This document shows, piece after piece, positions 9,430-47,230 of a stretch of DNA of 47,239 bases (positions are counted from its first letter, which is position 1; every line of letters starts with the position of its first letter). This stretch comes from Leptolyngbyaceae cyanobacterium clean351 (lineage in GTDB: Bacteria > Cyanobacteriota > Cyanobacteriia > DAIDHW01). The stretch is taken from NCBI GenBank assembly GCA_027451865.1, contig DAIDHW010000012.1, forward strand, positions 1-47,239. Direction: 5' to 3'. A model generated the notes under the pieces. The model was not told the DNA's origin. It searched no databases and saw only the letters and a list, made by a program, of their open reading frames with translations. The translations under genes and the position numbers were made by a program.

Positions 9430-9433
9430 GGGC

Positions 9434-9483: not shown

Positions 9484-9514
9484 TATATTGGGGTCCGTAG
9501 CTTGACCCCGGTTC

Positions 9515-11402: not shown

Positions 11403-11630
11403 CTACAACTTGCTTTCCAGGTCACTGACTTCTGAGTTGATCCAGTTGTTGGCGTCTTGGTCAACTTCTGTGTTCAAGGCTTGTTCGATGGCATCTCCAC
11501 CAGGGACGTGGGAGACTAAACCGTCGACGGCCTGGTTAATAAACCCATCTGCTGCGTTGTCAATGCCGGCGTCGACGGCGAAGTTGCCAGCTTGCTGAAT
11601 CAGGTTGGGGTCGGAATTGGGGTCAGCCAC
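11403..11630 (-). CDS. Small acidic protein of unknown function
   Basis: 75 residues from a GTG start at 11630, preceded on the minus strand by GAGGAG at a workable spacing. That site is the main reason to accept the gene. The protein is acidic and Asn/Asp/Ala-rich (NFAVDAGIDNAADGFINQAV), probably helical, with no Cys and no membrane segment. I do not recognise the family. It stands alone between the P450 gene and the chlG operon. It could be a short stress or regulatory protein, but nothing in the sequence shows this. Confidence 0.55.
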   Translation of the reverse strand: MADPNSDPNLIQQAGNFAVDAGIDNAADGFINQAVDGLVSHVPGGDAIEQALNTEVDQDANNWINSEVSDLESKL

Positions 11631-11802
11631 GGTGGATGTCTCCTCAAACAGGATGTTGACCTGTTTATCCTATCGGAAAATTAATCAGGGCAAAAGAGGG
11701 GCGGGAGCTCTCCAAGGCGTCTCCCAAGGCCACCTCTGAACCTGCCTAGGGGTCGATCCAGGTTCACAAATATTTTCATATTTTCGATCCTGGTCCCTGA
11801 GC

Positions 11803-12762: not shown

Positions 12763-12767
12763 AGGAG

Positions 12768-13859: not shown

Positions 13860-13864
13860 AGAGC

Positions 13865-14065
13865 CTACTGCCGCACCAGCTCTACTTCATCCTCAAAAAA
13901 CCAGGTAGTGGCTTGGTCGTCAAATTTCACCATCACCCCGATCCCGCTGCCATCGACCATTTTGTAGCCCTGCACGGTGCCCAATTTCCCTAGCTTTTCG
14001 ATGACGGCCGGCCCGACTCGGTCCCGCAAGCGCCGGACACGCACTTTCTCGCCAATTTCCATCAC
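13865..14065 (-). CDS. DUF2862 family protein
   Basis: 66 residues. It reads as a small SH3-like beta barrel: EKVRVRRLRDRVGPAVIEKL, then GTVQGYKMVDGSGIGVMVKF and TTWFFEDEVELV. This matches the DUF2862 family found in cyanobacteria and plants; function unknown. It is the first gene of the operon with the Get3-like gene and chlG (5-bp gap) and is divergent from the winged-helix gene at 14220. Confidence 0.85.
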   Translation of the reverse strand: MMEIGEKVRVRRLRDRVGPAVIEKLGKLGTVQGYKMVDGSGIGVMVKFDDQATTWFFEDEVELVRQ

Positions 14066-14219
14066 AATCCTACGTCCTTATCCAAATTGTCTTAGAACCC
14101 TTAAAAGCCTACCACAAACCGGACTAGGACTCCGGGACCAATTGCTGAGGCATAATGGCTGGTATAAAGTCAGGCTTTTTAGTTTAATCTTTTGGGTATC
14201 CTTAGCGTGTTCACCAGCC

Positions 14220-14516
14220 ATGCCAGCTGAGTCCGACCCCACTCCTGAAGTCAGATCCCCTGGCATGCTCGATGTACTCGAGTTAACCCCCCAGGAGCGG
14301 CGCCTAGTGACCTGGTTTCTGCGGGCCGGCCGGGCCACAACCCCCCAGGTGGCAGCCCAGCTCAAGACTGACCCAGAAACCACCCAAACCCTCCTGCAGA
14401 CTCTGGTAAGCCGGGGTTTTTTGCGTACGGAAATAACCGAACAGGAAACTTACTACCGGGCTGGTCTGCGACCCAATCCCTCCCAACTGCCGCCACAGCT
14501 GTGGGATTCCCTGTGA
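14220..14516 (+). CDS. Small winged-helix DNA-binding protein, MarR/ArsR-like
   Basis: 98 residues from ATG 14220. The open frame extends upstream to 13977 but there overlaps the divergent DUF2862 gene and reads implausibly, so the shorter start is chosen; a third option is ATG 14265. Residues about 20-75 form a winged helix (LTPQERRLVTWFLRAGR, TPQVAAQLKTDPETTQTLLQ, LVSRGFLRT). It is probably a transcription factor. Its position divergent from the DUF2862-Get3-chlG operon suggests it could regulate it, which is inference only. Confidence 0.65.
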   Translation: MPAESDPTPEVRSPGMLDVLELTPQERRLVTWFLRAGRATTPQVAAQLKTDPETTQTLLQTLVSRGFLRTEITEQETYYRAGLRPNPSQLPPQLWDSL

Positions 14517-14566
14517 GAGCCTGGCAATAGGCTAAGATTTAGGGGTGACTTAAACTCTTCAAAATT

Positions 14567-14809
14567 ATGAGCGCTCCCCTTGCCCTAACCACGGAAAATG
14601 TTGAGAACGTCTTGGACGAGATGCGTCCATACCTGATGGCCGACGGGGGAAATGTAGAACTGGTAGACATCAGCGGGCCTGTGGTAAAGCTCCGCCTCCA
14701 GGGGGCTTGCGGCGCCTGTCCCAGTTCCACTATGACTCTGCGCATGGGCATTGAGCGCCGTCTACGGGAGATTATCCCGGACATCGCCGAGGTGGAGCAG
14801 GTCCTCTAG
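14567..14809 (+). CDS. nfu: NifU-like C-terminal domain Fe-S scaffold (Nfu)
   Basis: 80 residues, a stand-alone Nfu domain. Cysteines 48 and 51 in GACGACPSS form the CxxC that binds a 4Fe-4S cluster bridging a dimer. The N-terminal helix ([22 protein letters not shown]) is diagnostic. In cyanobacteria this protein is the principal Fe-S scaffold and supplies photosystem I. It precedes the GH57 gene by 12 bp. Confidence 0.95.
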
Positions 14810-14821
14810 GCTGCCTCCTCC

Positions 14822-17044
14822 ATGGCCTATCCCCTCTACGTCGCCTTTATTTGGCACCAACACCAACCCCTGTACCGCAGCCAAATCAACTTCCCGGGGG
14901 GAGCCTCACCCGGTAAGTACCACTTGCCCTGGGTGAGGTTGCACGGGGTCAAAGACTACCTGGATATGGTCCTGCGGCTGGCCCGCTATCCCCGCCTGCA
15001 CCAGACCGTCAATCTAGTCCCCTCCCTAGTCCTGCAACTCCAGGACTACATTCAGGGGGAGGCCTTTGACCCCTACTTGGCCCTGGCCCTCACCCCCACT
15101 GAGAACCTCAGTCGCGATAACAAAGCCTACATCCTACGCTACTTCTTCGATGCCAACGCCCAGCGGATGATCGCCCCCCATCCCCGCTACCGGGAGCTCT
15201 ACGAACGACGCCAAGAGGAAGGGGTAGACAAGTGCCTAGAAACTTGGGGAGAGGAGGACTACGGCGACCTGCTAGCTTGGCACAATCTAGCCTGGTTTGA
15301 CCCCCTGTTTTGGGATGACCCCCAGATAAGCACGTGGCTTGAGCAGGGCTGCGGCTTCACCCTCAGTGACCGGCAGCGGATCTACAGCAAACAGCGGCAA
15401 ATCCTGGCCCAGATTTTGCCCTACCACCGACAGCTCCAGGACACCGGCCAACTGGAGGTGACCACCTCCCCCTACACGCACCCGATTTTGCCTCTACTTG
15501 CCGACACGGACGCCGGCCGCGTCGCCGTCCCCCGGCTGAGCTTACCGGCCCAGAGATTCCACTGGCCCGAGGACATTGGTCGCCACCTGCAGCGCTCCTG
15601 GCAACTGTACCAGAAGTGGTTTGGCTGTGACCCCCGGGGCCTCTGGCCCTCGGAGCAGGCGGTCAGCTCGGCTATCCTTCCCTACGTGGCCCGGCAAGGC
15701 TTCAAGTGGTTGTGCAGTGACGAGATGATCCTCGGCCAGAGTTTGGGACACCTGTTTCAGCGAGACCCCCGGGGGAACCTCTACACCCCCGAGGTGCTCT
15801 ACCAACCCTACCGCCTCACCACCAAGGCGGGGGACCTGGCAATCGTCTTTCGGGACCACCGTCTCTCAGATTTGATTGGTTTTACCTACGGCAGTATGCC
15901 CCCCGCTCAGGCGGCCGCCGATCTGGTCCATCACCTAGAGGAAATCTCCTACTCCCTGCAGGCACGCCAGGGGACCGCAAGTTTAGACCGCCCTTGGCTA
16001 GTGACTATCGCCCTAGACGGGGAAAATTGCTGGGAATTTTACGAGCAAGACGGCCAAGAATTTTTTGAATCCCTCTACCAATCCCTCAGTTATCACCCGG
16101 CCTTAAAACTGGTGACAGTAGCTGAGTTTATCGACCAGTATCCCCCCCGAGAGACCCTCGGTTACCTCCACACGGGCTCCTGGATCGATGGCTCCCTCAC
16201 CACCTGGATTGGCGACCCGGTCAAAAACCAGGCCTGGACCTATCTCGCTGCTGCCCGCCAGATGCTCGCTGAACATCCGGAGGCGACGGAGGCAACTAAT
16301 CCGGCCGCTTGGGAAGCTCTCTACGCCGCCGAAGGTTCCGATTGGTTCTGGTGGTTTGGCGAGGGACACACCTCCAACCAGGACGCCATCTTCGACCAGT
16401 TATTTCGGGAGCATCTAGTTGCCCTTTACCAAGCGCTCCAGGAAGCCCCCCCCAAGTACCTAGCCTTCCCCCTCGAACCCCATGCCCCCTCAGGCACCCA
16501 CAACCCCCAGGGGTTAATTCATCCCCTAGTTGATGGCCAGGGAGATCGACAGGCTTGGGACAAGGCCGGCCGAATTGAGATTGGCGGGGCCCAGGGCGTG
16601 ATCCACCAGGCCAGCCCCGTCCAGCGAGTTTGGTACGGAGCTGACCACCTCCACTACTACCTACGCTTTGACCTGCAGCCAGGAATACCCCCGGACCTGC
16701 ACCTGTGCTGGTTTTACCCCCATCAACCCCTCTACAACAGCCCCATCGATGAACCCCCACTACCGGATTTCCCTCCCCTCAACTACCGCTTCCACCATCG
16801 ACTACGGATCAAATTCCCTCAGCCGGAACTGACTTTAGCAGTTGCCGAGCCGGAGAACCGCTGGAGAAAGTGCCCCACCACCGCCCGGGCCGCCTGGGGT
16901 GAGTGCTTGGAAGTGGCCATCCCCTGGGGTGACCTGCCTGTGCACCCTGGCTGGTCCTTGCAGTTAGTGGTTTTTCTCTCCCAAGAGGGTTGCTTCCAGA
17001 GCTACCTGGGAGAAGCAGGCCTGATCGGCGTCCACGTCCCTTGA
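14822..17044 (+). CDS. Glycoside hydrolase family 57 enzyme
   Basis: 740 residues. The N-terminus VAFIWHQHQPLYRS is GH57 motif 1. A probable nucleophile Glu sits in GLWPSEQAVS (near residue 275), and the acid Asp in ALDGENCWEFYEQDG (near residue 400). This motif set is that of the amylopullulanase or alpha-amylase-like branch, acting on alpha-glucans such as glycogen. The C-terminal 180 residues form an extra beta-rich domain. No signal peptide, so it is cytosolic. It is common in cyanobacteria, with the exact activity (hydrolase or transferase) unassigned. Confidence 0.9.
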   Translation: MAYPLYVAFIWHQHQPLYRSQINFPGGASPGKYHLPWVRLHGVKDYLDMVLRLARYPRLHQTVNLVPSLVLQLQDYIQGEAFDPYLALALTPTENLSRDNKAYILRYFFDANAQRMIAPHPRYRELYERRQEEGVDKCLETWGEEDYGDLLAWHNLAWFDPLFWDDPQISTWLEQGCGFTLSDRQRIYSKQRQILAQILPYHRQLQDTGQLEVTTSPYTHPILPLLADTDAGRVAVPRLSLPAQRFHWPEDIGRHLQRSWQLYQKWFGCDPRGLWPSEQAVSSAILPYVARQGFKWLCSDEMILGQSLGHLFQRDPRGNLYTPEVLYQPYRLTTKAGDLAIVFRDHRLSDLIGFTYGSMPPAQAAADLVHHLEEISYSLQARQGTASLDRPWLVTIALDGENCWEFYEQDGQEFFESLYQSLSYHPALKLVTVAEFIDQYPPRETLGYLHTGSWIDGSLTTWIGDPVKNQAWTYLAAARQMLAEHPEATEATNPAAWEALYAAEGSDWFWWFGEGHTSNQDAIFDQLFREHLVALYQALQEAPPKYLAFPLEPHAPSGTHNPQGLIHPLVDGQGDRQAWDKAGRIEIGGAQGVIHQASPVQRVWYGADHLHYYLRFDLQPGIPPDLHLCWFYPHQPLYNSPIDEPPLPDFPPLNYRFHHRLRIKFPQPELTLAVAEPENRWRKCPTTARAAWGECLEVAIPWGDLPVHPGWSLQLVVFLSQEGCFQSYLGEAGLIGVHVP

Positions 17045-17060
17045 ACTGTCACCATCACCC

Positions 17061-19151
17061 ATGAATTCCCCCTTGCGTTTTTTGATGTGCCCACCTGAGC
17101 ACTACGATGTAGACTACGTGATCAATCCCTGGATGGAGGGGAACCTACACAAGTCCTCTCCAGCTAGGGCCCGGGAGCAGTGGCAGCAACTCTACCAGCT
17201 AGTCCAAGCCCACGCTCAGGTGGATCTAGTCACTCCCCAAGCGGGCTGGCCCGACATGGTGTTCACCGCTAACGCAGGACTAGTCCTAGGGCAGACGGCG
17301 GTTTTGAGCCGTTTCTACCACCCGGAACGCCAAGGGGAAGAACCCTACTTTAAGCAGTGGTTTCTCGAGCAGGGCTATCAGGTACGGGAGATGCCCCAAG
17401 ACTTACCCTTTGAGGGAGCCGGGGACGCCCTACTAGACCGGGAAGGGCGCTGGCTATGGGCCGGGTATGGATTTCGCTCAGAACTAGATTCCCACCCCTA
17501 CCTAGCCCGCTGGCTAGACATCGAGGTGCTTTCCTTGCGCCTGGTAGACGAGAGATTCTACCACCTAGACACCTGCTTTTGTCCCCTCCAGGGTGGCTAC
17601 CTGCTCTACTACCCCTCTGCCTTTGACGCCTACTCGAATCGCCTGATCGAGCTGCGTGTCCCCCGGGAAAAAAGAATCATGCTCGAGGAGACTGACGCAG
17701 TGCAGTTTGCGGCCAATGCTGTCAACATCGGCCAGATCGTGATCCTTAACCAGGCCAGCGACCCCCTGAAGACTCACCTACAGCACCACGGCTTCCAAGT
17801 CCTCGAAACTCCCCTGACAGAGTTTCTCAAGGCCGGGGGAGCATCCAAGTGTCTTACTTTGCGGGTGACCGAGCCGGTCATGGAAACCTCCCAGGCCAAA
17901 GCCGGGGTAGCCAGTCGAGTGATCTATCTAGAAGGGCACCTGTTGGACTCAGGTCTGATCAATCGGGCCCTAGATTTGGTTGTGGAAGGGGGGGGAAGCT
18001 TCCAGATTTTAAATTTCCAGTTGGGTCTGCAGCGCCAAAGTACCTCCAGCGCTGAAGTGAAGGTGTCCGCCCCCTCCGGGGAGGTGATGGAAACCCTCAT
18101 GGCCCAGCTCATTGACCTGGGGGCCGCCGCTAGACCCCAGGAGGAGCAAGACGTCTACCTAGAACCAGTCACCCAGGCTGGTACCGCCCCGGAGGATTTT
18201 TATGTCAGTACTATTTATCCCACCGAGGTGCGGGTGGAGGGCACCTGGATCCGTGTCCAGCACCAGCGCATGGATGCGGCCATCGTGGTGGACCGGTCTA
18301 ACCGGCGGGCTAGCTGTAAGCTATTACGAGACCTAGTGGTGGGAGAAGAAATTGTAGTGCGCGTGGAGGGAATCCGGACCGTGCGCAAGCCGGAATCCCG
18401 GGAAGCCAAGCCAGCCCAAGAATTTAGCTTTATGGGGGCTGGGGTTTCCAGTGAGCGCCGGGTAGAACTGGTAGTGGAGCAAATTGCCTGGGAACTGCGC
18501 CACATCCGGGACCAGGGGGGTAGGGTAGTGGTGACGGCCGGTCCTGTGGTGATCCACACCGGGGGGGGAGAGCACTTAGCGCGGCTGATTCGGGAAGGCT
18601 ACGTCCAGGCTCTCCTAGGGGGGAATGCTATCGCTGTCCACGATATCGAGCAGGCCCTGCTCGGCACCTCCCTGGGGGTGGATATGCAGCGGGGGATTTC
18701 GGTCCACGGTGGCCACCGCCATCACCTCAAGGCGATCAACACCATTCGCCAGGCCGGCGGCATCCGCCAGGCAGTCCAGCAGGGCCTCCTCACTCAAGGG
18801 GTGTTCTACGAGTGCGTCCAGAGGGGAGTACCCTTTTCCCTGGCCGGGTCCATCCGCGATGACGGCCCCTTGCCCGATACCTGGATGGACCTGATTCAGG
18901 CCCAGGCAGACTACGCCCGACTTCTGGAAGGGGCAGACTTAATCCTGATGCTTTCCTCGATGCTCCACTCCATTGGCGTAGGCAACATGACCCCGGCCGG
19001 AGTCAAGTTAGTTTGCGTAGACATCAACCCGGCGGTAGTCACCAAACTCAGTGACCGCGGCTCCGTTGAGTCGGTGGGGGTGGTAACTGATGTGGGGTTA
19101 TTCTTAAGCCTGCTCGTGCGTCAGTTAGACCGTCTCAACCTACCCGCCTAA
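17061..19151 (+). CDS. argZ: Arginine dihydrolase / ornithine cyclodeaminase-like enzyme (ArgZ/AgrE)
   Basis: 696 residues, the normal length. The N-terminal arginine dihydrolase domain (about 1-280) converts arginine to ornithine, CO2 and ammonia. The residues known from Synechocystis ArgZ fall at the same numbers here: Asn71 (TANAGLV), His168 (HLDTCFC) and Cys264 (ASKCLTL). The C-terminal part (about 285-690) is the LOR/SDH-like region that in Anabaena AgrE makes proline from ornithine. It remobilises nitrogen from arginine and cyanophycin in the cytosol. Starts 16 bp after the GH57 stop. Confidence 0.95.
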   Translation: MNSPLRFLMCPPEHYDVDYVINPWMEGNLHKSSPARAREQWQQLYQLVQAHAQVDLVTPQAGWPDMVFTANAGLVLGQTAVLSRFYHPERQGEEPYFKQWFLEQGYQVREMPQDLPFEGAGDALLDREGRWLWAGYGFRSELDSHPYLARWLDIEVLSLRLVDERFYHLDTCFCPLQGGYLLYYPSAFDAYSNRLIELRVPREKRIMLEETDAVQFAANAVNIGQIVILNQASDPLKTHLQHHGFQVLETPLTEFLKAGGASKCLTLRVTEPVMETSQAKAGVASRVIYLEGHLLDSGLINRALDLVVEGGGSFQILNFQLGLQRQSTSSAEVKVSAPSGEVMETLMAQLIDLGAAARPQEEQDVYLEPVTQAGTAPEDFYVSTIYPTEVRVEGTWIRVQHQRMDAAIVVDRSNRRASCKLLRDLVVGEEIVVRVEGIRTVRKPESREAKPAQEFSFMGAGVSSERRVELVVEQIAWELRHIRDQGGRVVVTAGPVVIHTGGGEHLARLIREGYVQALLGGNAIAVHDIEQALLGTSLGVDMQRGISVHGGHRHHLKAINTIRQAGGIRQAVQQGLLTQGVFYECVQRGVPFSLAGSIRDDGPLPDTWMDLIQAQADYARLLEGADLILMLSSMLHSIGVGNMTPAGVKLVCVDINPAVVTKLSDRGSVESVGVVTDVGLFLSLLVRQLDRLNLPA

Positions 19152-35403: not shown

Positions 35404-36369
35404 ATGTCACGACATTTGGAGCGGTTACTGGAGCTAGATGCCCTACTCAGGTGTGGTCAACCCTATACGGCGGCAAGGCTAGCTGAGGAACTAGAGGTCA
35501 GTGAAAGGACTATTCGCAATGACTTGGCGTTTCTGCGTGACCGCTTCCACGCTCCCATCAGTTCTAACAAGAAGCAAGGCTACCACTACACAGAGCCCAC
35601 GTGGCGATTACCGAGCATTTTCCTCTCCAAAGGGGAACTTTTTGCTTTGACCTTAGGGGCAAGAATGCTCCAGGCCTACTCAGGTTCTACCTACGCCCAG
35701 GACTTGCACTCGGCCATTGACCGATTAGCGGAGCGGCTCCCCGAGAAGACCTGGGTGGACCTGCAAGAGTTATCGCAAGAGCGGATCCTATTTCGTTCAG
35801 GGGCGCAGGTCGATTTAGACCCAGACATTTGGCACAAGCTAGAGGGGGCTTGCCAAAGACAAAAGACAGTAGAAATGATATACTACACTGCCAGTAGGGA
35901 TGCGGTTTCAACCCGCAAATTAGACCCCTACGTACTGCACATCTACAGGGGAACAAACCCCTATGTGATTGGCTACTGCCATCAGCGTCAGGAGATCCGC
36001 TGGTTTCGAGTCGACCGGATTAAGCAACTACAAGTCTTGGATAATGTTTTTGTATTAGATCCTACCTTTGATGCAAAGGATCATCTGGAGATGATATTTC
36101 AGCACGAGGCAGGTGGAGTACCTCAGACCATTATCGTCTGGTTCGATGCGCCCACTGCTCCTTATATTCGGGAACGTCGCTGGCACCGGACTCAGGAAAT
36201 CCAGGAGCATCCCGATGGTTCGTTGACCCTGAGGATGGTAGTAGGCGGGTTAAATGACCTCAAGCGCTGGGTGTTGGGTTATGGGAAGGGTGCAGTCGTG
36301 CGGGAGCCCCGGGAGTTGGTCGAGATGGTCAAGTCAGAGATTATTAGCATGAGTACATCGTACAGATAG
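35404..36369 (+). CDS. WYL-domain transcriptional regulator of the CRISPR-Cas locus
   Basis: 321 residues. An N-terminal HTH (about 5-60: LLELDALLRCGQPYTAARLA, VSERTIRNDLAFLRDRF) is followed by a WYL domain (about 140-215, with YVLHIYRGTNPYVIGYC and EIRWFRVDRIKQL) and a C-terminal WCX-like extension (residues 240-315). WYL regulators sense nucleotide or nucleic-acid ligands. Sll7009 of Synechocystis, of the same type, represses a CRISPR array. It lies 9 bp before cas6 in the same orientation, so it is probably the local regulator. Confidence 0.9.
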   Translation: MSRHLERLLELDALLRCGQPYTAARLAEELEVSERTIRNDLAFLRDRFHAPISSNKKQGYHYTEPTWRLPSIFLSKGELFALTLGARMLQAYSGSTYAQDLHSAIDRLAERLPEKTWVDLQELSQERILFRSGAQVDLDPDIWHKLEGACQRQKTVEMIYYTASRDAVSTRKLDPYVLHIYRGTNPYVIGYCHQRQEIRWFRVDRIKQLQVLDNVFVLDPTFDAKDHLEMIFQHEAGGVPQTIIVWFDAPTAPYIRERRWHRTQEIQEHPDGSLTLRMVVGGLNDLKRWVLGYGKGAVVREPRELVEMVKSEIISMSTSYR

Positions 36370-36378
36370 GGGCATGGG

Positions 36379-37038
36379 ATGAATTTTTTAGAGATTCAAT
36401 TCGGAATTAGTGGCGCCGCTAAGACATTACCTGCTGATCATGGCTATGCACTCTACTCAGCGGTTAAACGGGTGTTGCAAAGAGAAGATTTTGACCCAAA
36501 AGATATCCCCGTAGACATAAAGCTTTGCAGTGTATCAGGCATACCAAATCGTGACGGAAAAATTTACCTACATAGGCAGTCTAGAGTACGTGTACGATGT
36601 CTACCTGATAAAGTACAGATATGGTACAGATTGTTGCAAAATCAAGAGCTAAATATCCGGGGACACAAAGTTCGGTTAGTACGGCCACGATTGGCTTTAC
36701 CAGAGGCTTCAGAAGTAGTGCGGGCGAGAATGGTGACGTTTAAGCTAGAGAGGGTTGATCACCCAGAGTTACCCCACTATTTTCTAGACTCATGTCACAG
36801 AGGATTAGCACAATTAGAAATTACGGGGGGAAGCGTTTTTATCCCCAGTGATCGAAACGGGAATCTAGCTCGCAAGACACTACAGATCAAAGACAAGAAG
36901 ATTATTGGGTATGCCCTTACTGTAGAAGGATTAAACGCAGAAGACTCTTTGAAACTGCAATGGCATGGGCTGGGTGGACGACAACATTTTGGTTGTGGGT
37001 GGTTTTATCCCTATAAAGGAGAAGGTCATGGGATTTAA
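36379..37038 (+). CDS. cas6: CRISPR RNA endoribonuclease Cas6 (MYXAN type, Cmx6)
   Basis: 219 residues. It begins FLEIQFGISGAAKTLPADHG and ends with a glycine-rich loop, GLGGRQHFGCGWFYPY, as in the Cas6 RAMP fold of the MYXAN subtype. It cuts pre-crRNA at the base of the repeat hairpin. His26 or another near-N-terminal His may be catalytic, but I cannot prove which. The last 11 bases overlap the cas3 start, indicating translational coupling. Confidence 0.88.
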   Translation: MNFLEIQFGISGAAKTLPADHGYALYSAVKRVLQREDFDPKDIPVDIKLCSVSGIPNRDGKIYLHRQSRVRVRCLPDKVQIWYRLLQNQELNIRGHKVRLVRPRLALPEASEVVRARMVTFKLERVDHPELPHYFLDSCHRGLAQLEITGGSVFIPSDRNGNLARKTLQIKDKKIIGYALTVEGLNAEDSLKLQWHGLGGRQHFGCGWFYPYKGEGHGI

Positions 37039-39313
37039 TCCAATTCCTCCAGATCTAAAACCAAACCTTTTACTGGCAAAGTCCTCTATGCCAGGAATGC
37101 CCGACTGGAGCGGAAGCTGCCATCTGGTCGGTCATACAGCCTCAGTAGTCCAGTCGGTGACGCTGTTGGTGGACACGCTCAAGGACTTCTTGGTTCCACG
37201 GTTCGGCTTATCTTGTAGCTTTGAAGAATTACGGGCAACGGCTAGATTAGCGGCATATTTACATGATTGGGGGAAGGCAAATCATCACTTTCAGATGGTA
37301 GTGCGCAATGACCTGAGGTCGCTGGAGCCAATGTATCGTCGCAATCCCATAGAATTTCCCCAAATGATTCGTCACGAGGTAGCCTCAGTTCTGATGGCAT
37401 GGGATTTTCGCGAGTGGCTGCAACAATGTCCTCAAGCAGACCTGATGACGGCGCTAGCTGCTGCTGGTGGGCATCATCTGAAGATGGGTGGTAAGCAAGG
37501 TAAGGATACAAGCGAGTTTGGGGAATGGCGAGATGGCTCTGGTGATACCAGAATGCATTGGTATATTCAGCATCCCTTCTTTAAGAAGCTCTTGCGCTAT
37601 GGTATTAGAGCATTAGATTTACCACGCGAAATTAAAGTGCGAGGTGTTAAGGCATGCTGGGATGTTTCCATGGTGAAGGAGAAACGCCTAGAGATGCTCG
37701 ATCGATTTTTGGATTGGGAGCCAGACAAGTCAATGCTAGCGGCGGTCAAATCCCTGTTGATTGCTGGAGATGCTATTGGTTCTGCCTCCGCACAATCCAA
37801 GATTGATATTCAAGCCTGGATGGTCGAGGAATTAGAGCAACGATTATCGACTGATGATTTGCAAAAGGTAATTGATGCAAGGCGCGGTGAGTATGAACTA
37901 CGCGAATTTCAAGTTGACTTAGGTAAATCCAGTCGGCGAGTGACATTAGCGCGGGCGGGCTGTGGTACTGGAAAGACCTTGGGAGCCTACAACTGGGCAA
38001 AGACCCATGCGACTGGATGTAAGCTTTTTTTCTGTTATCCCACTACCGGTACCTCTACTGAGGGATTCCTCGACTATGTACAGGATGAAGTTGAATCAGT
38101 TTTGCTGCATTCCCGGGCGGCAATTGATCTAGAAATGGCTACCACAGGTGAAGAGAGCGAAAACGGTAGGGAATTAATTACATCCACCTACGTCGACGAA
38201 GCAGCTCAAAAGTTAGCTTCCTTCCAAGCCTGGGGTCCGAAGGTAAGTGTCTGCACTGTGGATACTGTGTTAGGGCTACTACAGTGTAACCGCCGGCCTT
38301 TGTATTGTTTTCCAGCGATTGCTCAAGCGGCATTCGTCTTTGATGAAGTCCACTGCTATGATGATGCCCTATTTGGAGCGCTGTTAAAATTTTTGGAGCT
38401 AGTAAAGGCTCCAGTGCTGCTAATGTCGGCGTCATTTTTACCTTGGCAGATTGAATTGATCAAAGGAGCTGTAGGTGAATCAATTGAGATTATACAAGGC
38501 CCGAAAGAAATTGAAGAACGGCCAAGCTATAGATTTCACCTTGTAGATCAGCCGGATTGGGAAAGAGTTGAAGTAGAGATGTCTAGGGATGGCAAGGTCC
38601 TGTGGGTGTGCAATCAGGTGAATGTCGCGATTGCAGTCTACCAAGAAGCTCGCAGACGAGGCTTTAATACCGTCCTATATCACAGTCGATTCCGCTATGA
38701 GGACCGAGTGGCACACCACCGAGCTGTGGTAGATGGATTTAAGGAGGGAAGCTCTCCTATTCTGGCAGTTACTACTCAGGTAGCTGAGATGTCCCTTGAC
38801 CTATCAGCTACACTGCTGGTAAGCCAAATTGCTAATCCAGCTAGTTTAGTTCAGCGCCTAGGACGACTGAACAGGAGATATTGCGGCCATGCATTAGATG
38901 CAATTTTCTATCCCCCAGAAAACCGCTACCCCTACGAACAGTCAGAATTGGATGCCGGAGAAGCACTGATTCGCGCCTTCAGTGGCGAAGTCAGTCAGGC
39001 AGAATTAGCAGTATGGTTAGAGCAGTCAGGTGCTCAGGGAGAACCCAAGACCTGCACAGTGTTGCTAGATGGAAAATGGCGGACCTACCCAGCTCCTTTG
39101 CGCCAGGCTGGTTACACAATTTCGGCACTTCTAGAAGTGGATAAGTCTAACTGGCAACACGCAAAGACGTCAGATTTAGACCGTTATGTGGTACCCCTGC
39201 CAACCCACCAGACTGGACGTTGGGGCCGCCATCGGAAGGGTTACTTGATCGCACCGAAGGAGGAATGGAGTTACAACCAACAGATTGGTGCTCAGGAGAT
39301 AAAAAATGTCTGA
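37028..39313 (+). CDS. cas3: Cas3 HD nuclease-helicase
   Basis: 761 residues from ATG 37028, preceded by AAGGAG. The frame opens earlier (36965), but that start would lie deep in cas6. The HD domain has His32/His36 and His79-Asp80 (YLHDWGK). The helicase has RAGCGTGKT (Walker A), FDEVHCYDD (DEVH box), LAVTTQVAEMSLDLSA and the arginine finger QRLGRLNRR. It unwinds and degrades the target strand after recruitment by Cascade. All motifs are intact. It overlaps cas8 by 8 bp. Confidence 0.95.
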   Translation: MGFNPIPPDLKPNLLLAKSSMPGMPDWSGSCHLVGHTASVVQSVTLLVDTLKDFLVPRFGLSCSFEELRATARLAAYLHDWGKANHHFQMVVRNDLRSLEPMYRRNPIEFPQMIRHEVASVLMAWDFREWLQQCPQADLMTALAAAGGHHLKMGGKQGKDTSEFGEWRDGSGDTRMHWYIQHPFFKKLLRYGIRALDLPREIKVRGVKACWDVSMVKEKRLEMLDRFLDWEPDKSMLAAVKSLLIAGDAIGSASAQSKIDIQAWMVEELEQRLSTDDLQKVIDARRGEYELREFQVDLGKSSRRVTLARAGCGTGKTLGAYNWAKTHATGCKLFFCYPTTGTSTEGFLDYVQDEVESVLLHSRAAIDLEMATTGEESENGRELITSTYVDEAAQKLASFQAWGPKVSVCTVDTVLGLLQCNRRPLYCFPAIAQAAFVFDEVHCYDDALFGALLKFLELVKAPVLLMSASFLPWQIELIKGAVGESIEIIQGPKEIEERPSYRFHLVDQPDWERVEVEMSRDGKVLWVCNQVNVAIAVYQEARRRGFNTVLYHSRFRYEDRVAHHRAVVDGFKEGSSPILAVTTQVAEMSLDLSATLLVSQIANPASLVQRLGRLNRRYCGHALDAIFYPPENRYPYEQSELDAGEALIRAFSGEVSQAELAVWLEQSGAQGEPKTCTVLLDGKWRTYPAPLRQAGYTISALLEVDKSNWQHAKTSDLDRYVVPLPTHQTGRWGRHRKGYLIAPKEEWSYNQQIGAQEIKNV

Positions 39314-40799
39314 ATACACACTGTCGATTCTTGACCCAAATACGTTGTTGCCCCATCGCGCGGGCATCGCTGGATTAGCCTTGGCCCTTTCGGTGATGAA
39401 GCAACAGGACGCCCCACTGACCTGGAAAGTGACTGAGGAGCAGGTGCAACTTGCCTGGCAGGGAAGCGACCACCAGGTTGTGAAGTGGTTGTTGAATGAA
39501 ACCTACCAGATCAGGGATGGCTACCTTGACGCACCTGCACTTAATCTGGATGACCAGGGAAAATACACATTCACCACGGGCATTCTGTCAACCTTCCTGC
39601 AACATCCTAGGCAACACAAGCGCGACAGTAACGAAGTAGACAAGGCTTTCACTATTGAAGAAGGACAACCAGAAATTCTGCTCAAGTTCAAGCCTCTGTT
39701 GAGTTGCTATTACACCGAGGACTTGAAGGAACCTTTTAATACAAAAGGTGCTTTTAGGGAAATGATAGAGCTGAAGGGACAGCATTTACCTGGGTTAGTA
39801 GAATGCTTTGTTAATGGGCCATACCAGGAGTCTCCCCAGAACTTTATCCCTCTCCTGTTTCTGCCGTTAGCTTGTCACTACTACGAGCTACCAGGTTTTC
39901 GATCGATAGTTTTAATCCCAGAGGTGACGAATCTCATAAAGTGGGTTAGGCGCCGACCGGAAATCTCTGGCCGTACCTATCGAGATTACCGCAGCAGTAG
40001 TGCCGGGGAATCGGCCCTGAAATTCCTCTTTCAGGAGAATATAGCCGATGATGCTAAACTAGAGCGTGTTGAGTACTGCGAAGTCTATCAATTGGGAAAG
40101 CAAACCTGGGATAGTAATCAACGCCACCTGAAACAGTCTGTTCGCCGTGTGGAATTGAAAGAGGGAGTCCTCAGACTTTACAGCCAAGCGACTCAGTTAT
40201 TTCCATCCAGAGTGGTTCAACCCAAAGTCGATGGACAGAATAAAGCAGGTCAACCCTGGTTAGCAACTTCGGCAACCTTAGCTTGGATCTGTGACAACTT
40301 GATTGCAGGGAAGGTTTGGTACGCTGGATTTTTTGAATTTCGGAAGCATCAGGAAATCTATGAAAGAGAGGGTCTAGTTAAAATGGCTGAGGAACTTACC
40401 GAACAGGAAAGAGTACTGTTCAATGCGGTGCAGGGAAGCTTTAGGGTTTACCTGGCTAGACAGGGGGAACAGGCTAGTAAGCAAGGTCGAGAAATGGATT
40501 ACGGACAAGTTACCGACAAGGTGGTTTATCGGATGCAGCGACCGAGTACTCAGCAGGAATTCGCAACTGCCTTGGTAGACTTCCTCAGCCAATTTCGGGG
40601 TAAGGCATCCCAGGGTGTTGGCCTAGATATTTACCAATGGATTCATCGGCAAGAAAACTGGCGCACAGCCAGAGACTTAACTCTATTAGCGATCGCTACC
40701 TATGTGGGGGTGGAAAAGGAGACAGGGCGAGCAGAATCGCCTAAGTCTCCTACCGAAGCGGACCAGGAGAACCCTGGAATGTACGAAATGCAGTTCTAG
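39306..40799 (+). CDS. cas8: Cascade large subunit Cas8 (MYXAN type, Cmx8/Csx13)
   Basis: 497 residues in one piece. Some relatives are split into N and C parts. The N-terminus SEYTLSILDPNTLLPHRAGI and TWKVTEEQVQLAWQG are typical of the DevT/Csx13 family. The large subunit recognises the PAM and docks Cas3. The last 138 residues are helical, with their own ribosome site and in-frame ATG at 40383, consistent with a Cas11 product. A single HIP1 palindrome lies at 40689. RBS AGGAGAT precedes the ATG. Confidence 0.88.
   Translation: MSEYTLSILDPNTLLPHRAGIAGLALALSVMKQQDAPLTWKVTEEQVQLAWQGSDHQVVKWLLNETYQIRDGYLDAPALNLDDQGKYTFTTGILSTFLQHPRQHKRDSNEVDKAFTIEEGQPEILLKFKPLLSCYYTEDLKEPFNTKGAFREMIELKGQHLPGLVECFVNGPYQESPQNFIPLLFLPLACHYYELPGFRSIVLIPEVTNLIKWVRRRPEISGRTYRDYRSSSAGESALKFLFQENIADDAKLERVEYCEVYQLGKQTWDSNQRHLKQSVRRVELKEGVLRLYSQATQLFPSRVVQPKVDGQNKAGQPWLATSATLAWICDNLIAGKVWYAGFFEFRKHQEIYEREGLVKMAEELTEQERVLFNAVQGSFRVYLARQGEQASKQGREMDYGQVTDKVVYRMQRPSTQQEFATALVDFLSQFRGKASQGVGLDIYQWIHRQENWRTARDLTLLAIATYVGVEKETGRAESPKSPTEADQENPGMYEMQF
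40383..40799 (+). CDS. cas11: Putative Cas11 small subunit from an internal start in cas8
   Basis: In-frame ATG at codon 360 of cas8, preceded by GAGAGGG with a 10-base gap. It would give 138 residues, the size of small subunits in type I Cascades. The stretch is predicted helical (MAEELTEQERVLFNAVQGSF, ATALVDFLSQF, TARDLTLLAIATYVG), as expected for Cas11. Internal translation of Cas11 from cas8 is established for types I-B, I-C and I-D. It has not to my knowledge been shown for this MYXAN lineage, so the call is inference. Confidence 0.55.
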   Translation: MAEELTEQERVLFNAVQGSFRVYLARQGEQASKQGREMDYGQVTDKVVYRMQRPSTQQEFATALVDFLSQFRGKASQGVGLDIYQWIHRQENWRTARDLTLLAIATYVGVEKETGRAESPKSPTEADQENPGMYEMQF

Positions 40800-40822
40800 A
40801 GAATTATTCAGGAGGGAAAACC

Positions 40823-41728
40823 ATGTCCAAGCATTTGTTTATCACTGTAGTCACGCCCACCGCCATCGCGGCAAATAATCGGGGAGAAGGTGACGGTAGC
40901 ACTCTGATGACGCTGCAAAAAATTACCCGGGGTAGTGACCAGTACACCACGGTAAGTGCAGAAGCTATTCGCTGGGGATTACGGGAGTATTTCCAAAATA
41001 CGGATGAGCCTCATACTAACCGTACTTTTGATCCCAATACAGATAAGTACACATTCAAGTCTGAGGCTGGTCAAGGTGGTAAGAGATTTGATCCCAAGGA
41101 ATATATTGACGATGACCTGTTTGGTTACATGGATGCTAGGAAGAACTCTGACAACCAAGATGTAACTACTAAGCGCCGTGGGGCTTTAGAAATCAGTCGA
41201 GCTATCAGTCTTGACCCCTATTGGGGTGATGTTGCCTTTGGCTCTACCGGTGGTGAGAAAGGCAAGACCTCTATTCACAGCACAGAGGTCCACTGTACAG
41301 CCTACCAGTATACCGCTGCCCTTACTCCTGAAAGTCTGAAGCAACCAAACCGTGCCCTTTTAGCCCTAGATGCAATTGCATCCGTACGGCATGTAGGGGG
41401 TAATCATTCTCGGTTCTTGTTCGACTTTCGACCCGAATCGATTGTAATTCGGATTACCGATGACCCCAGCCCTTGGATCATGAACTGTTTTAAGCGAGTG
41501 GGAGATGAAGTTGGTTGCAGTGACTTAGTGCGTCTAGTTGAAGTGGGGGATGTAAAGGCAAGTGAGTTAATTGTGGCCGGGGAAATTGCCGACACCCCCT
41601 ATGGGGGGCAGTTGAAACAGCTGCGGGTTAAGGTTTATCGGGGAGTGAAGGAAGCAATCACTCATGCCAAGAGTAACCTCCAAGAAAGCCCGAAGGCGGC
41701 TGAGGAATCTCTTGCGAAAGGAGGCTAG
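40823..41728 (+). CDS. cas7: Cascade backbone Cas7 (DevR/Cst2 family)
   Basis: 301 residues. It begins LFITVVTPTAIAANNRGEGD and contains VSAEAIRWGLREYFQNTDEP, typical of the DevR branch of Cas7. Several copies coat the crRNA spacer. A strong ribosome site (AGGAGGG, six bases before ATG) indicates high expression, as suits the most abundant subunit. The name DevR comes from the Myxococcus dev operon, where it also controls development. Confidence 0.93.
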   Translation: MSKHLFITVVTPTAIAANNRGEGDGSTLMTLQKITRGSDQYTTVSAEAIRWGLREYFQNTDEPHTNRTFDPNTDKYTFKSEAGQGGKRFDPKEYIDDDLFGYMDARKNSDNQDVTTKRRGALEISRAISLDPYWGDVAFGSTGGEKGKTSIHSTEVHCTAYQYTAALTPESLKQPNRALLALDAIASVRHVGGNHSRFLFDFRPESIVIRITDDPSPWIMNCFKRVGDEVGCSDLVRLVEVGDVKASELIVAGEIADTPYGGQLKQLRVKVYRGVKEAITHAKSNLQESPKAAEESLAKGG

Positions 41729-41733
41729 GCTTA

Positions 41734-42438
41734 ATGCAGCTTTATGTTGAGTGTCCGTGCACTAGTTTTCCTCGGAGTTTTGCTCGGGATTTCAAGGAGA
41801 CCTATCCCTACCCACCACCATCAACTGTTTACGGGATGCTCCTATCCTTAGTCGGTGAAGTGGATATGGTTGCCCATGTCGGCGTGAAATTGGCGATTGG
41901 AATGATTGGGCAGAATCCACCAATCTCCCGCATTGTTCGTAAACAGCGCCATCATAAATTTGCTATTGGTAGAACCGAAGGCAACAAACGAGTATCCAAA
42001 TATGGAGAAGGCATTTATCCAGCTAGTCAGTTTGCCAAACCCAACCATCAGGAGCTTCTGACTGACTTGAGGTTTGTCGTGAGGATTGATGCGGGTGATG
42101 AAACCAGAGTACTAACACTGGCTGACCGCGTTAGGGCTGCCCTGTCAACCCCTGAGCAGATCTCCCGCTTCGGGGGCCTGAGTTTAGGTGAATCTTGGGC
42201 GATGTTGAATGGAATTCGTATGTACCGTGAAGGTGATGGGTTGGTCCGTTGGCTAACCCTAGACAAGCGTGGTCTCATTGGTTTACCTGTTTGGATCGAC
42301 CGGCAGACAACCCAGGGCACATTTGCACGGTTTGCTTTTACTGATGACTTCACCGATGGTTGCTGGGTAAGTATTACTCCGCCAGAGGACACTCGAAAAC
42401 CAGTAAAGGTAGGTTCTCCGCGCAGGAAGAAGTCTTAG
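41734..42438 (+). CDS. cas5: Cascade Cas5 (MYXAN type, DevS/Cmx5)
   Basis: 234 residues. The start LYVECPCTSFPRSFARDFKE and YPYPPPSTVYGMLLSLVGEV are typical of DevS-like Cas5, with the glycine-rich loop later in the protein (RFGGLSLGESWAM). It binds the 5' handle of the crRNA. The ribosome site AAAGGAGG lies within the end of cas7, with the stop only 5 bp away. It is the last effector gene before the 552-bp gap. Confidence 0.93.
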   Translation: MQLYVECPCTSFPRSFARDFKETYPYPPPSTVYGMLLSLVGEVDMVAHVGVKLAIGMIGQNPPISRIVRKQRHHKFAIGRTEGNKRVSKYGEGIYPASQFAKPNHQELLTDLRFVVRIDAGDETRVLTLADRVRAALSTPEQISRFGGLSLGESWAMLNGIRMYREGDGLVRWLTLDKRGLIGLPVWIDRQTTQGTFARFAFTDDFTDGCWVSITPPEDTRKPVKVGSPRRKKS

Positions 42439-42990
42439 ACAAAGGCTAAGTTGAACCTATGAGTCAGGTCTAGAAGTTTCCCTCCGGTACCTGGGAGGCT
42501 CATGGTTTCAGGTGATCGACTCTGTGTCAATTTTGGATAAGTTGCCGAAGACACACGGTTTACTAAGGCTTCGGAGTCTTCTATGTGTGTTTAGACGTGG
42601 AAAATAGCTCGTTAGGGCTATTGTACGCAACTCACTCCAACCCCATGACAGGTAAAGGACCCCCGCCCAGAAGCGCCTCCTTTACCGTCGAAGAGAAGTT
42701 AACGTATCTCCCCCCCCACCTGTGGGCTTTCAACAGAAGACTCACTACCAACGCACTCTCAGGGATTCACTCTGAAGTGCTAGTGCTGCTGTCTCTGCTT
42801 AGATCTCCAGGCAAGACGAGCTGACGCAGTCAGGGGAGATACTCCAGAAATTACAACACGAGTCCGACCTCCTGGCGAGGGGTGGGGATTGGAGAAACCC
42901 TCGTTCCAGTAAAGAAATTTTGTAGGCGGAAACTATTTTGCCGGGTTGATGGCGCAAGGTAGACATAACTGACTTGGATAGAAACTAAAG
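42439..42990 (+). other. Structured non-coding gap between cas5 and cas4-cas1
   Basis: 552 bases without a supported gene in an otherwise tightly packed operon. It holds several inverted repeats: TGAACCTATGAG / CTCATGGTTTCA (42452-42463 and 42499-42510), CCGAAG / CTTCGG (42545-42550 and 42569-42574), the overlapping alternative GAAGAC / GTCTTC (42547-42552 and 42576-42581), and the perfect 9-bp GGTAAAGGA / TCCTTTACC around 42652-42687. It could be a small RNA, an attenuator or the site of a lost gene. Confidence 0.6.
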
Positions 42991-44688
42991 ATGAACGCAA
43001 TCACCTCTTTTCTTGACAGCCTGGAAGCGACGGCAAATTCGACCCTGCGTGTCTCCTCCCTCCATGCCTTGGCCTACTGCCCCCGCCTGTTTTACCTTGA
43101 GGAAGTTGAAGAACTTTATACCGAAGACGCGGCAGTTTTTGCCGGTCGTAGGCTGCATGCCGAACTAGAAAAGCAAGAGGACGAGGATTGGGAGGAACTG
43201 TTTTTAGAGAATGAAGAGCTCGGGTTGCGGGGACGGGTTGATGCCCTGCGAACCCGCGATGGCTGGGTGATTCCCTACGAACATAAGCGGGGCCGCAGCT
43301 ATCGGGATGAGCATGATCAACCCCAGGCGTGGGAGAGTGACCGCCTCCAGATTCTTGCCTACGCCTACCTCTTGGAGGTGACCTTGGGTGTACCGATTCA
43401 AGAAGGGCGGATTCGCTACCATGCGGACAACGTGTTAGTACACGTGCCGCTAGATGAGACAGGACGGCGGATGGTGCGGGAGGCAATTGCCCAAGCGCGG
43501 GCATTGCGCTGCTCGACCCATCGTCCCCCAGTGACGGAGAATGAGCGGTTGTGTGGGCGGTGTTCCCTCGCCCCTGTATGTTTGCCAGAGGAGGCACGGC
43601 TAGCCCACGACCAGGGGTGGCAGCCAGTGCGTTTATTTCCTGAGGATGACGACCGCCAGATCCTGCACATTCTTGAGCCGGGGACCAGTGTGGGACGAGC
43701 GGGAGAGCAACTGAAGATTACAGCCTGTCCCAACAGGTCTGCCGGCACGAAGCCCACGGTGGAAAAAGTCCCAGCCCGGCAGGTTGGACAGGTTGTGCTG
43801 CATAGTTTTGCCCAGATTTCTACCCAGGCGCTTCGTTTTTGTGCCGATCAGGGGATTGGCGTGCATCTTGTCTCAGGGGGCGGGCGTTATCTGGGGAGTT
43901 TTGATAGTCGCCAAGGGAGCATTCAACGACGTTTACGGCAGTACGAGGCTTTAAGTAACCCTGACTTTTGTCTGCAGCTGGCGCGGCGATTAGTAGCTTG
44001 TCGGGGACAGGGACAGCGTAAGTTTTTGATGCGTGGACGTCGAGGGGCTGGGGAGGCAACAGCGGCACTGGGAGTAGCCATCGACCAAATGAAGGCTGTG
44101 CTGAAGGGAGTGCCTAGGGCTGAATCCCTGGGTTCACTCCTCGGTCTGGAGGGCAATTTAGCAGCGTTATATTTTGGTGCTTTGGGGGAGATGATCAGTC
44201 CGGGAGTGCCTCAGGAATTACGGTTTGATCAGCGCAATCGACGACCGCCAAAGGACCGGTTTAATGCATTGCTAGGTTTTGGGTATGCATTACTACTGAA
44301 GGATGTCATGAATGCCATTCTGACTGTGGGTTTGGAGCCTGCCTTGGGGTTTTATCATCAGCCTCGGACTCAGGCACCACCGCTGGCACTCGATCTGATG
44401 GAGATTTTCAGAATCCCTTTGGTAGACATGCCAGTTGTTGGCTCTATAAACCGCAATCAATGGGATGCAGCAACAGACTTTACGGTGTGCGAGCAGCAAG
44501 TGTGGCTGAGTGATGATGGACGGCGCAAGTTTGTGGCCTTGTACGAACGGCGTAAGGAAGAGAGCTGGAAACACCCAGTGACAGAGTATTCGCTCACTTA
44601 CCGACGGTTAATGGAGTTGGAGGTGCGCCTATTGGAGAAGGAGTGGATGGGGGAAGGGGGACTTTTTGGACAGTTGATTATCCGGTAG
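42991..44688 (+). CDS. cas4-cas1: Cas4-Cas1 fusion integrase
   Basis: 565 residues. The Cas4 part (1-205) has Cys30 in ALAYCPRLFYLEEVEELY and the cluster ERLCGRCSLAPVC for the 4Fe-4S cluster, with the RecB-type GRVDALRTRDGWVIPYEHKR between. The Cas1 part (about 230-565) has catalytic Glu387 (GLEGNLAALYFG), His456 (GFYHQPRT) and Glu471 (ALDLMEIF). Cas4 trims and orients prespacers and Cas1 integrates them. Such fusions occur in MYXAN-type and type I-G loci. The start lacks a strong ribosome site. Confidence 0.95.
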   Translation: MNAITSFLDSLEATANSTLRVSSLHALAYCPRLFYLEEVEELYTEDAAVFAGRRLHAELEKQEDEDWEELFLENEELGLRGRVDALRTRDGWVIPYEHKRGRSYRDEHDQPQAWESDRLQILAYAYLLEVTLGVPIQEGRIRYHADNVLVHVPLDETGRRMVREAIAQARALRCSTHRPPVTENERLCGRCSLAPVCLPEEARLAHDQGWQPVRLFPEDDDRQILHILEPGTSVGRAGEQLKITACPNRSAGTKPTVEKVPARQVGQVVLHSFAQISTQALRFCADQGIGVHLVSGGGRYLGSFDSRQGSIQRRLRQYEALSNPDFCLQLARRLVACRGQGQRKFLMRGRRGAGEATAALGVAIDQMKAVLKGVPRAESLGSLLGLEGNLAALYFGALGEMISPGVPQELRFDQRNRRPPKDRFNALLGFGYALLLKDVMNAILTVGLEPALGFYHQPRTQAPPLALDLMEIFRIPLVDMPVVGSINRNQWDAATDFTVCEQQVWLSDDGRRKFVALYERRKEESWKHPVTEYSLTYRRLMELEVRLLEKEWMGEGGLFGQLIIR

Positions 44689-44695
44689 GGAGATT

Positions 44696-44989
44696 ATGGC
44701 GGAGTCGAAAAACTGGTATCTGGTGTGTTACGACATTCGCTGTCCTAGGCGTTGGCGTAAGGCGCACAAGCTTTTGCTGGGGTATGGGGAGGCAGTACAA
44801 CTGTCGGTTTTTCGTTGTCGGTTGAGTCAGCGAGACCGAGAGAAGTTACGTTGGGAACTAGAACAGATCTTGTCACAGGAGGACAAGATCCTATTGGTTG
44901 GCCTGTGCCATCGTTGTGTGGAGCGAGTGGAGCAATGTAACCGTGAGGACGCCTGGGAAACTGAGGAAGAGCGATTTAGAGCGATCTGA
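44696..44989 (+). CDS. cas2: Cas2
   Basis: 97 residues, ferredoxin-like fold, with WYLVCYDIRCPRRWRKAHKL. Asp13 is the conserved metal-binding residue. The Cas2 dimer bridges Cas1 in the integration complex. It starts 7 bp after cas4-cas1 with AGGGAG as ribosome site, and the leader follows it directly. Confidence 0.95.
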   Translation: MAESKNWYLVCYDIRCPRRWRKAHKLLLGYGEAVQLSVFRCRLSQRDREKLRWELEQILSQEDKILLVGLCHRCVERVEQCNREDAWETEEERFRAI

Positions 44990-45249
44990 TGCAAGCACCG
45001 GCGGATGGGCGGGTCGATTTGGAACAGAAGGTCTCGAAATGCTCTGTGGGACTTGATTACAACTGTTTGCGAGCCGACACAGATCCTTGCAATCGAGATA
45101 CAATGTATGCAGGACAACGGTTACGGCGATTTTGACGGGTGATAATTTGGAGAGATTGCAGGTGTCTTGCACAATTTTTCAAGTTAGAAGCCAAGTTGCT
45201 TGCAAAACCTGCCAGGAGTCCTTTTCTGGCAAGGGTTTTGAAGGTCGCC
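44990..45249 (+). promoter_or_regulatory. CRISPR leader region
   Basis: 260 bases between cas2 and the first repeat, with no gene. Array orientation is inferred from the repeat: read on the plus strand its hairpin is followed by an 8-nt 3' piece (TTGAGCAC), the type I 5' handle, so the leader is on this side. Promoter elements are weak (TTGACG at 45132, GATAAT at 45141). An imperfect inverted repeat ends 9 bp before the first repeat. Confidence 0.7.
45203..45240. repeat. Inverted repeat at the leader end
   Basis: CAAAACC-TGCCAG (45203-45215) pairs with CTGGCA-AGGGTTTTG (45226-45240), a 13-bp imperfect stem with a two-base bulge and a 10-base loop. No T-tract follows on either strand, so it is not a classical terminator. 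It lies 9 bp before repeat one, the place where leader-anchoring sequences for Cas1-Cas2 usually lie. Confidence 0.8.
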
Positions 45250-47230
45250 GTGTCCAAACCTCTGATGCCGTAAGGCGTTGAGCACAATCTAGTCCCGAAC
45301 AGATAAATACTTTGGTAACAGGTAGTGTCCAAACCTCTGATGCCGTAAGGCGTTGAGCACCCGAAAGAAGCTCGCCATCCCCCCAATGGACTCCCCGTGT
45401 CCAAACCTCTGATGCCGTAAGGCGTTGAGCACACCGAGGGGGAAAGAATTTCACGGGCTGCTGCTCTGTGTCCAAACCTCTGATGCCGTAAGGCGTTGAG
45501 CACCCCGATCTTCCTTCGATTTCCTGGGGGGGATTCTCGTGTCCAAACCTCTGATGCCGTAAGGCGTTGAGCACCAAAAAGAAGGGCCTAATGCCTTGCC
45601 TATTGTTGCTTGTGTCCAAACCTCTGATGCCGTAAGGCGTTGAGCACGAAATTCTCTGTTCTTGATCAGGACAGAAAACCAGTGTCCAAACCTCTGATGC
45701 CGTAAGGCGTTGAGCACATTTGATCGATGTCGCCATGAATATTGCCCGCGATTGTGTCCAAACCTCTGATGCCGTAAGGCGTTGAGCACTTCACCCGGCA
45801 GATCCATGAAAAAGAAGCACTCGGAGGTGTCCAAACCTCTGATGCCGTAAGGCGTTGAGCACAGCCAAGGATTGGGCAAGATGGCTGGCAATCAGAAAGT
45901 GTGTCCAAACCTCTGATGCCGTAAGGCGTTGAGCACGATCAATAATGGAAGTAATCCGCTGGCACCTGGGCGTGTCCAAACCTCTGATGCCGTAAGGCGT
46001 TGAGCACAACCCCTTCGCATCGGCCTGGTCAGTATTTGTCGAATGTGTCCAAACCTCTGATGCCGTAAGGCGTTGAGCACCCGGAAGCGAGGCAGAGGCC
46101 GAGAGGGTAGGGCAATGTGTCCAAACCTCTGATGCCGTAAGGCGTTGAGCACAATAGATGCAAGTGGGGAATTCCCCCCCCCTGCAATGTGTCCAAACCT
46201 CTGATGCCGTAAGGCGTTGAGCACGTTGGGCAATGAGCCTGTGGCGGTACCTCGCCAAATTAGTGTCCAAACCTCTGATGCCGTAAGGCGTTGAGCACGT
46301 GCTGAGGAAATTGAAGGCGGAGGGGTTATTTTAGGGTGTCCAAACCTCTGATGCCGTAAGGCGTTGAGCACTTGAGACTGCCAACCTCTTTCCATTCCCA
46401 ACTTTGTGTCCAAACCTCTGATGCCGTAAGGCGTTGAGCACTTAAGGTTTTGGAAGCGCAGATTCTCCTTGGGGGAGTGTCCAAACCTCTGATGCCGTAA
46501 GGCGTTGAGCACAGGTTCATGGCGCCTTTTGTCGCGCGAAAGGCCTTGTGTCCAAACCTCTGATGCCGTAAGGCGTTGAGCACTATTTAACAAGATTAAG
46601 GAGGTAATTCAATTAGAGCGTGTGTCCAAACCTCTGATGCCGTAAGGCGTTGAGCACGGACGTATCGCTCTTCTGAGATGCGGGTCAGCCGTGTGTCCAA
46701 ACCTCTGATGCCGTAAGGCGTTGAGCACACCAAGATTACGGTTGAAGCCTGGGTTTTAACTCAGGTGTCCAAACCTCTGATGCCGTAAGGCGTTGAGCAC
46801 GACAAATTTTTTAGCGATTGCGCGCGCTTCACTGCGTGTCCAAACCTCTGATGCCGTAAGGCGTTGAGCACTCTCGGCGACGGGCAGGGTTTAGGCCCCT
46901 GGACCCATTAGTGTCCAAACCTCTGATGCCGTAAGGCGTTGAGCACTACTGCCAAGGCCCCTTGGTATAGGTCAAGCCAGGTGTCCAAACCTCTGATGCC
47001 GTAAGGCGTTGAGCACCCGATGGATTCGAATCCATTTCACGAGCTTGCGAGTGTCCAAACCTCTGATGCCGTAAGGCGTTGAGCACAGTACGCTTGCTGA
47101 GGCTGCGTTATTAGTGGATGTGGTGTCCAAACCTCTGATGCCGTAAGGCGTTGAGCACTGGTACCGAAGTGCTGTAAGCCGGGATTCCTCCCGGGTGTCC
47201 AAACCTCTGATGCCGTAAGGCGTTGAGCAC
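45250..47230 (+). CRISPR. CRISPR array, 28 repeats visible, continues past window
   Basis: 28 repeats of 36 bp, all identical as far as I can read, starting GTGTCCAAACC and ending GGCGTTGAGCAC, with 27 complete spacers of 34-39 bp; no spacer is repeated. The repeat hairpin ATGCC-GTAA-GGCGT has a GNRA loop and leaves the 8-nt handle TTGAGCAC after Cas6 cutting. Spacing is regular. The last repeat is followed by nine bases of another spacer at the window edge. No worn terminal repeat is seen, so the distal end lies outside. Confidence 0.99.

Follow-up and report, generated by a model that had tools for sequence, protein, structure and literature searches.

The window, by which we mean the whole 47,239-nt stretch of DNA analyzed here, harbors a CRISPR-Cas operon whose genes all lie on the forward strand. 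The gene at issue is cas8 (39306–40799, 497 amino acids), which encodes the Cas8a1/Cmx1 protein, the large subunit of a type I-B “MYXAN” Cascade. Its product scored 156.6 bits against the N-terminal family model TIGR03485 (cut-off 80.85; E = 6e-46) and 44.7 bits against the C-terminal model TIGR03486, just below that model’s cut-off of 47.4 (E about 2e-11). A phmmer comparison additionally matched residues 5–483 to chain I of PDB entry 8fcj (E = 1.3e-23). That chain is labeled “Type I-MYXAN CRISPR-associated Cas8a1/Cmx1”, which is also the NCBI family name of the window Cas8.

The partners expected of a Cas8a1/Cmx1 protein are all present. Upstream of cas8 are cas6 (cmx6; 36379–37038; TIGR02807) and cas3 (37028–39313; TIGR01587 and TIGR01596), the latter comprising a helicase and an HD nuclease. 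Downstream are a DevR-type cas7 (Cst2/DevR; 40823–41728; TIGR02585), a DevS-type cas5 (cmx5/DevS; 41734–42438; TIGR02586), a cas4-cas1 fusion with a MYXAN cas1 (42991–44688; TIGR03983 and TIGR00372), and cas2 (44696–44989; TIGR01573). The operon is thus a cyanobacterial type I-B “MYXAN” CRISPR-Cas system; the alternative of a I-B CAST, in which cas3 and the adaptation genes would be missing and Tns/TniQ genes present, was ruled out, as cas3, cas4-1, and cas2 are all there. The genes are followed by a CRISPR array with 28 copies of a 37-nt repeat (45249–47230, no strand assigned; Rfam RF01343, CRISPR-DR33), which extends to the end of the contig, so that its true length is probably greater. Directly 5′ of cas6 and adjoining the operon, a transcriptional regulator (35404–36369; Pfam WYL, WCX, and HTH_11) was found. 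Two related loci have such a regulator too (annotated in L035; 69% identity in L097), and this recurrence suggests that the regulator is part of the operon. All nine genes within 35404–44989 were thereby assigned, either as the WYL regulator or as Cas.

An earlier note on this DNA had claimed that cas8 conceals a second gene: an in-frame ATG at codon 360, with GAGAGGG upstream, would open a 138-residue frame at 40383–40799 that encodes the small subunit Cas11. Every one of these coordinates was correct. The internal ATG occupies 40383–40385, the Shine-Dalgarno (SD)-like GAGAGGG occupies 40366–40372 (leaving 10 nt between box and ATG), and the nested cas11 frame, 138 amino acids in length, closes with a stop codon ending at 40799, all on the forward strand. 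The energy of the duplex between the anti-SD sequence and this site was −6.5 kcal/mol, which places it in the top 9% of positions along cas8. The RNA at the start site is predicted to be less structured than 90% of the gene. As proof, scoring of ribosome-binding sites in a single sequence was indecisive: two of the seven in-frame ATGs, at codon 410 (−8.0) and codon 492 (−7.4), outscore the one at codon 360. Considered by itself, the internal site of the window does not stand above chance, and the evidence from this one sequence is modest.

The earlier note had also stated that the locus has no separate small-subunit gene, and our searches agree. In the 2.48-Mb assembly, a homology search, which a non-homologous small subunit would escape, returned no stand-alone relative of Cas11; the sole match was at 40383–40790, i.e. 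within cas8. The gap between cas5 and cas4-cas1 contains no plausible candidate for such a gene.

Much stronger evidence came from the relatives of cas8. Cas8a1/Cmx1 genes were gathered from cyanobacterial genomes and plasmids, and 97 distinct full-length copies, with identities to the window gene down to about 21%, were aligned; a search for a relative in viral contigs gave none. All 97 of these relatives, which are not statistically independent of one another, have a start codon at the column of M360 (91 ATG and six GTG). Among the 464 well-filled columns compared, the next best contained 54% start codons. Judged from this alignment, the conservation of a start codon at M360 is far above chance. 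Most relatives also have an aligned, purine-rich GAAAAGGA-like box at −17 to −10. Of the first 62 genes, 94% have an SD duplex energy of −5 or lower; the corresponding shares are 18% for background codons and 17% for the remaining in-frame ATGs. The median for the relatives was −7.15 (background, −2.2). The earlier note had listed, among the outcomes that would speak against its proposal, a lack of conservation of the ATG and ribosome-binding site in related cas8 genes combined with a fold unlike Cas11; the start codon proved to be invariant in the sense given above, and only five of the 97 fell short of an SD energy of −4.

Could this methionine be conserved merely for the sake of full-length Cas8, for instance as part of a linker into the C-terminal bundle, with no separate Cas11 being made? 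It belongs to a motif, R-x-G-L-x-x-M, that is kept at the protein level, and the purine-rich box follows in part from the codons of this motif. However, features of the nucleotide sequence argue against a need of Cas8 alone. First, the only residue that replaces the methionine among the 97 relatives is valine encoded by GTG; leucine, isoleucine, and valine encoded by any other codon never occur there. Elsewhere, about 21% of valine codons are GTG, although the six GTG cases represent few events, most of them from related genes. Second, the glycine codon located four before the start is skewed toward the synonymous codons GGA and GGG, which account for 75 of 84 instances, whereas their share in the remainder of the genes is 53% (p = 3e-12 at 90% redundancy). 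This purine bias remained evident when clusters at 60% identity were each represented by a single sequence (p = 5e-4) and was not significant at 45% clustering, where seven glycine-bearing sequences remain. Third, the local RNA structure predicted for the vicinity of the start is weaker than for the rest of the gene (Wilcoxon p = 5e-13 over the 97 related, and hence non-independent, sequences). These three signs point to selection for initiation and not for a methionine in Cas8. Moreover, three relatives (L094, L095, and L121) are devoid of the R-x-G-L motif and nonetheless keep the ATG, and a homologous free Cas11 chain is present in solved structures. We thus regard the conservation of the motif for Cas8 alone as a very improbable explanation.

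The identity of the nested product was examined at the level of its fold. AlphaFold2 modeled the 138-residue protein as a five-helix bundle (pLDDT 78, pTM 0.71) with a disordered C-terminal tail (residues 118–138), in keeping with the earlier note’s description of a helical protein of small-subunit size. When this model was compared to known structures using Foldseek, as the earlier note had recommended, it matched 8fcj chain I (probability 1.00) and 8fcj chain J, a Cas11 (probability 0.98, rmsd 2.2 Å, TM-score 0.78 on the target); no other match had a probability above 0.15. The small size and helical nature of the protein make the E-values of these two matches weak (0.1 and 1.4); it is therefore the probability, the TM-score, and an independent sequence match that carry weight. 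For the last of these, a profile built from 32 diverse relatives matched 8fcj chain J with E = 2.7e-34, from residue 1 and over nearly the whole length, with the start residues aligned. Full-length Cas8, modeled with four sequences as input, gave a structure of poor quality (pLDDT 43), which was therefore left out of the fold search.

Chain J of 8fcj, named “Type I-B CRISPR-associated protein Cas11”, is itself 138 amino acids long and is identical to the C-terminus of its Cas8 from M397 onward, a residue that aligns with M360 of the window protein. Free Cas11 of this type is represented by 18 chains over six PDB entries. Given the shared fold, the equal length, and the alignment of the start methionine with that of the solved protein, we conclude that the product is Cas11. 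The central claim of the earlier note, that an internal start in cas8 encodes Cas11, is strongly supported by this equal-length, aligned Cas11 of known structure, by the fold match, and by the conservation of the start codon and ribosome-binding site.

The same comparison bears on where, and how, the small subunit would arise. It is scarcely credible that the true internal start lies at a different in-frame ATG, for example that of codon 397 or codon 410: the latter does rank first in the window for SD energy (−8.0), but neither is a conserved start column, starts at these positions would cut into the predicted helical bundle, and the solved Cas11 begins at the column of codon 360. A proteolytic origin of Cas11 from Cas8 merits just as little credence, in that proteolysis would not require conservation of a start codon and an SD sequence at the nucleotide level, although fragmentation of Cas8b was formerly proposed for the I-B systems of Clostridium thermocellum and Methanococcus maripaludis (as cited in PMC11899642).

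The solved protein in question comes from PmcCAST, a type I-B2 CAST (PDB 8fcj, chains J and I, with sister entries 8fcu, 8fd2, 8fd3, 8ff4, and 8ff5). The two systems have in common a large subunit of the Cas8a1/Cmx1 family and a 138-residue Cas11 that equals the C-terminus of Cas8, starts at the same column, and adopts the same fold. They differ in that PmcCAST serves a Tn7-like transposon, whereas that of the window comes with its own Cas3, Cas4/1, Cas2, and array; also, the Cas11 part of the window protein is just about 20% identical to PmcCAST Cas11. The authors of the PmcCAST structure are said to describe Cas11 as an alternative translation product of cas8. The view of the earlier note that internal Cas11 had not been established for a MYXAN-type cas8 is contradicted by 8fcj and its five sister entries, which contain a separate Cas11 chain beginning at M397.

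Novelty for the MYXAN type is also countered by the “Myxan” type I-B Cascade of Synechocystis sp. PCC 6714 (PDB 8H67), in which an internal ribosome-binding site yields Cas11b (PMC11096372). This system resembles that of the window in being a cyanobacterial I-B system with an internal ribosome site in its Cas8 and a helical small subunit. Its large subunit is instead Cmx8 (Cas8b), which the Cas11-family profile of the window did not match at E-values up to 10; by this sequence comparison, the relationship of Synechocystis Cmx8 to the window Cas8 is apparently more distant, that of a parallel. In Haloferax volcanii, too, an in-frame internal start is found in a I-B large-subunit gene: Cas11b is made from M545 of cas8b, as tested by mutation and mass spectrometry (PMC11899642). 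The differences are that this system is archaeal, with a different Cas8b and a longer Cas11 (28.9 kDa as tagged in that study). More broadly, internal Cas11 starts are described as established for types I-B, I-C, and I-D in the summary given in PMC11899642 (for I-B, also in PMC11096372). According to the same summary, type I-C cas8c and type I-D cas10d likewise carry a nested in-frame Cas11 made from an internal ribosome-binding site, although these genes belong to other large-subunit families.

From these data, we consider it very likely that the 3′-terminal 417 bases of cas8 do double duty, being read once as part of full-length Cas8 and once as an internally started Cas11. What computation has shown is the internal ATG and its conservation, the signature of a ribosome site upstream of it, the fold of the product, and the homology of that product to a Cas11 of known structure. 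By analogy to the solved relatives, Cas11 would be translated in the window organism as follows: ribosomes entering at 39306 would produce full-length Cas8, and those engaging GAGAGGG and starting at the ATG at 40383 would produce Cas11, a free copy of the C-terminal helical bundle of Cas8. Several copies of Cas11, presumably three, the number found in both the PmcCAST entries and the Synechocystis I-B complex, would align with the C-terminal domain of Cas8 along the inner “belly” of Cascade. In the Synechocystis Cascade, three Cas11b subunits and the C-terminal domain of Cas8b constitute a belly, by which the non-target strand of the R-loop is supported (PMC11096372). A strand-holding role may likewise be expected of the window Cas11, i.e. 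its row of subunits would grip the displaced DNA strand when Cascade opens the target, and this would lead to recruitment of Cas3, the gene for which is in the window operon. Because the system has cas3, ordinary interference is the expected outcome.

The five relatives mentioned above as having a weak or absent SD (L094, L095, L121, L128, and L132) all keep the ATG. Since they do so, either the ribosome site is not strictly necessary or these genes initiate Cas11 weakly. Two of them, L128 and L132, have cas3 upstream and have in common an unusual Cas11 start, MKEST. Two loci, L094 (G064, 7077–16956) and L099 (G560, 8713–18104), consist of MYXAN-type cas6-cas8-cas7-cas5 without cas3. They are flanked by Tn7-like genes, namely separate TnsA and TnsB plus TnsC, with TniQ and TnsD also in L094; these loci are probably CASTs. 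The first of them, L094, retains the internal Cas11 ATG and has no SD. Loss of the SD as a simple marker of CASTs was a notion that we dropped, since cas3 immediately precedes two of the five SD-poor genes and an SD is retained at several cas6-cas8 loci. A broader conjecture, which we view as rather unlikely, is that the internal start is universal in Cas8a1/Cmx1 and that the ribosome site has been repeatedly relaxed or lost, including in the CAST lineage of L094, such that the dosage of Cas11 may differ between interference and transposition.

A few cas8 genes appeared odd. The “split” cas8 of G550 (L093, 9661–11159) looked like a natural separation of cas8 from cas11; it is instead due to a small frame shift near a run of T. 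The shift, possibly an assembly error, lies just upstream of the Cas11 start and leaves the Cas11 frame and its SD intact; if it is not an error, this gene is a natural test case. An “extended” Cas11 in L144 was traced to a run of N in the record. Finally, one genome (G109) has two similar truncated cas8 genes about 21 kb apart (L086 and L087, about 250 and 280 codons), each of which matches only the N-terminal half of the family.

We conclude with high confidence that the nested Cas11 frame of the window cas8 is real and that it is an ordinary instance of the known, internally encoded Cas11. What this analysis adds is how widely the start is conserved among the Cas8a1 genes of cyanobacteria, the evidence at codon level in these genes, and the few SD-poor exceptions that keep the ATG. 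In practical terms, reconstitution of the window Cascade in a foreign host calls for added Cas11 or for a check that the internal start is used, because a start of this kind can remain silent in E. coli, as does that of the Thermotoga maritima I-B1 system (PMC13199841). For the Cas8a1/Cmx1 CRISPR family, gene annotation misses a real protein. The conservation of the start codon across 97 genes supports the notion that Cas11 is a general, selected feature of cyanobacterial Cas8a1/Cmx1, one that would extend beyond a single solved transposon system.
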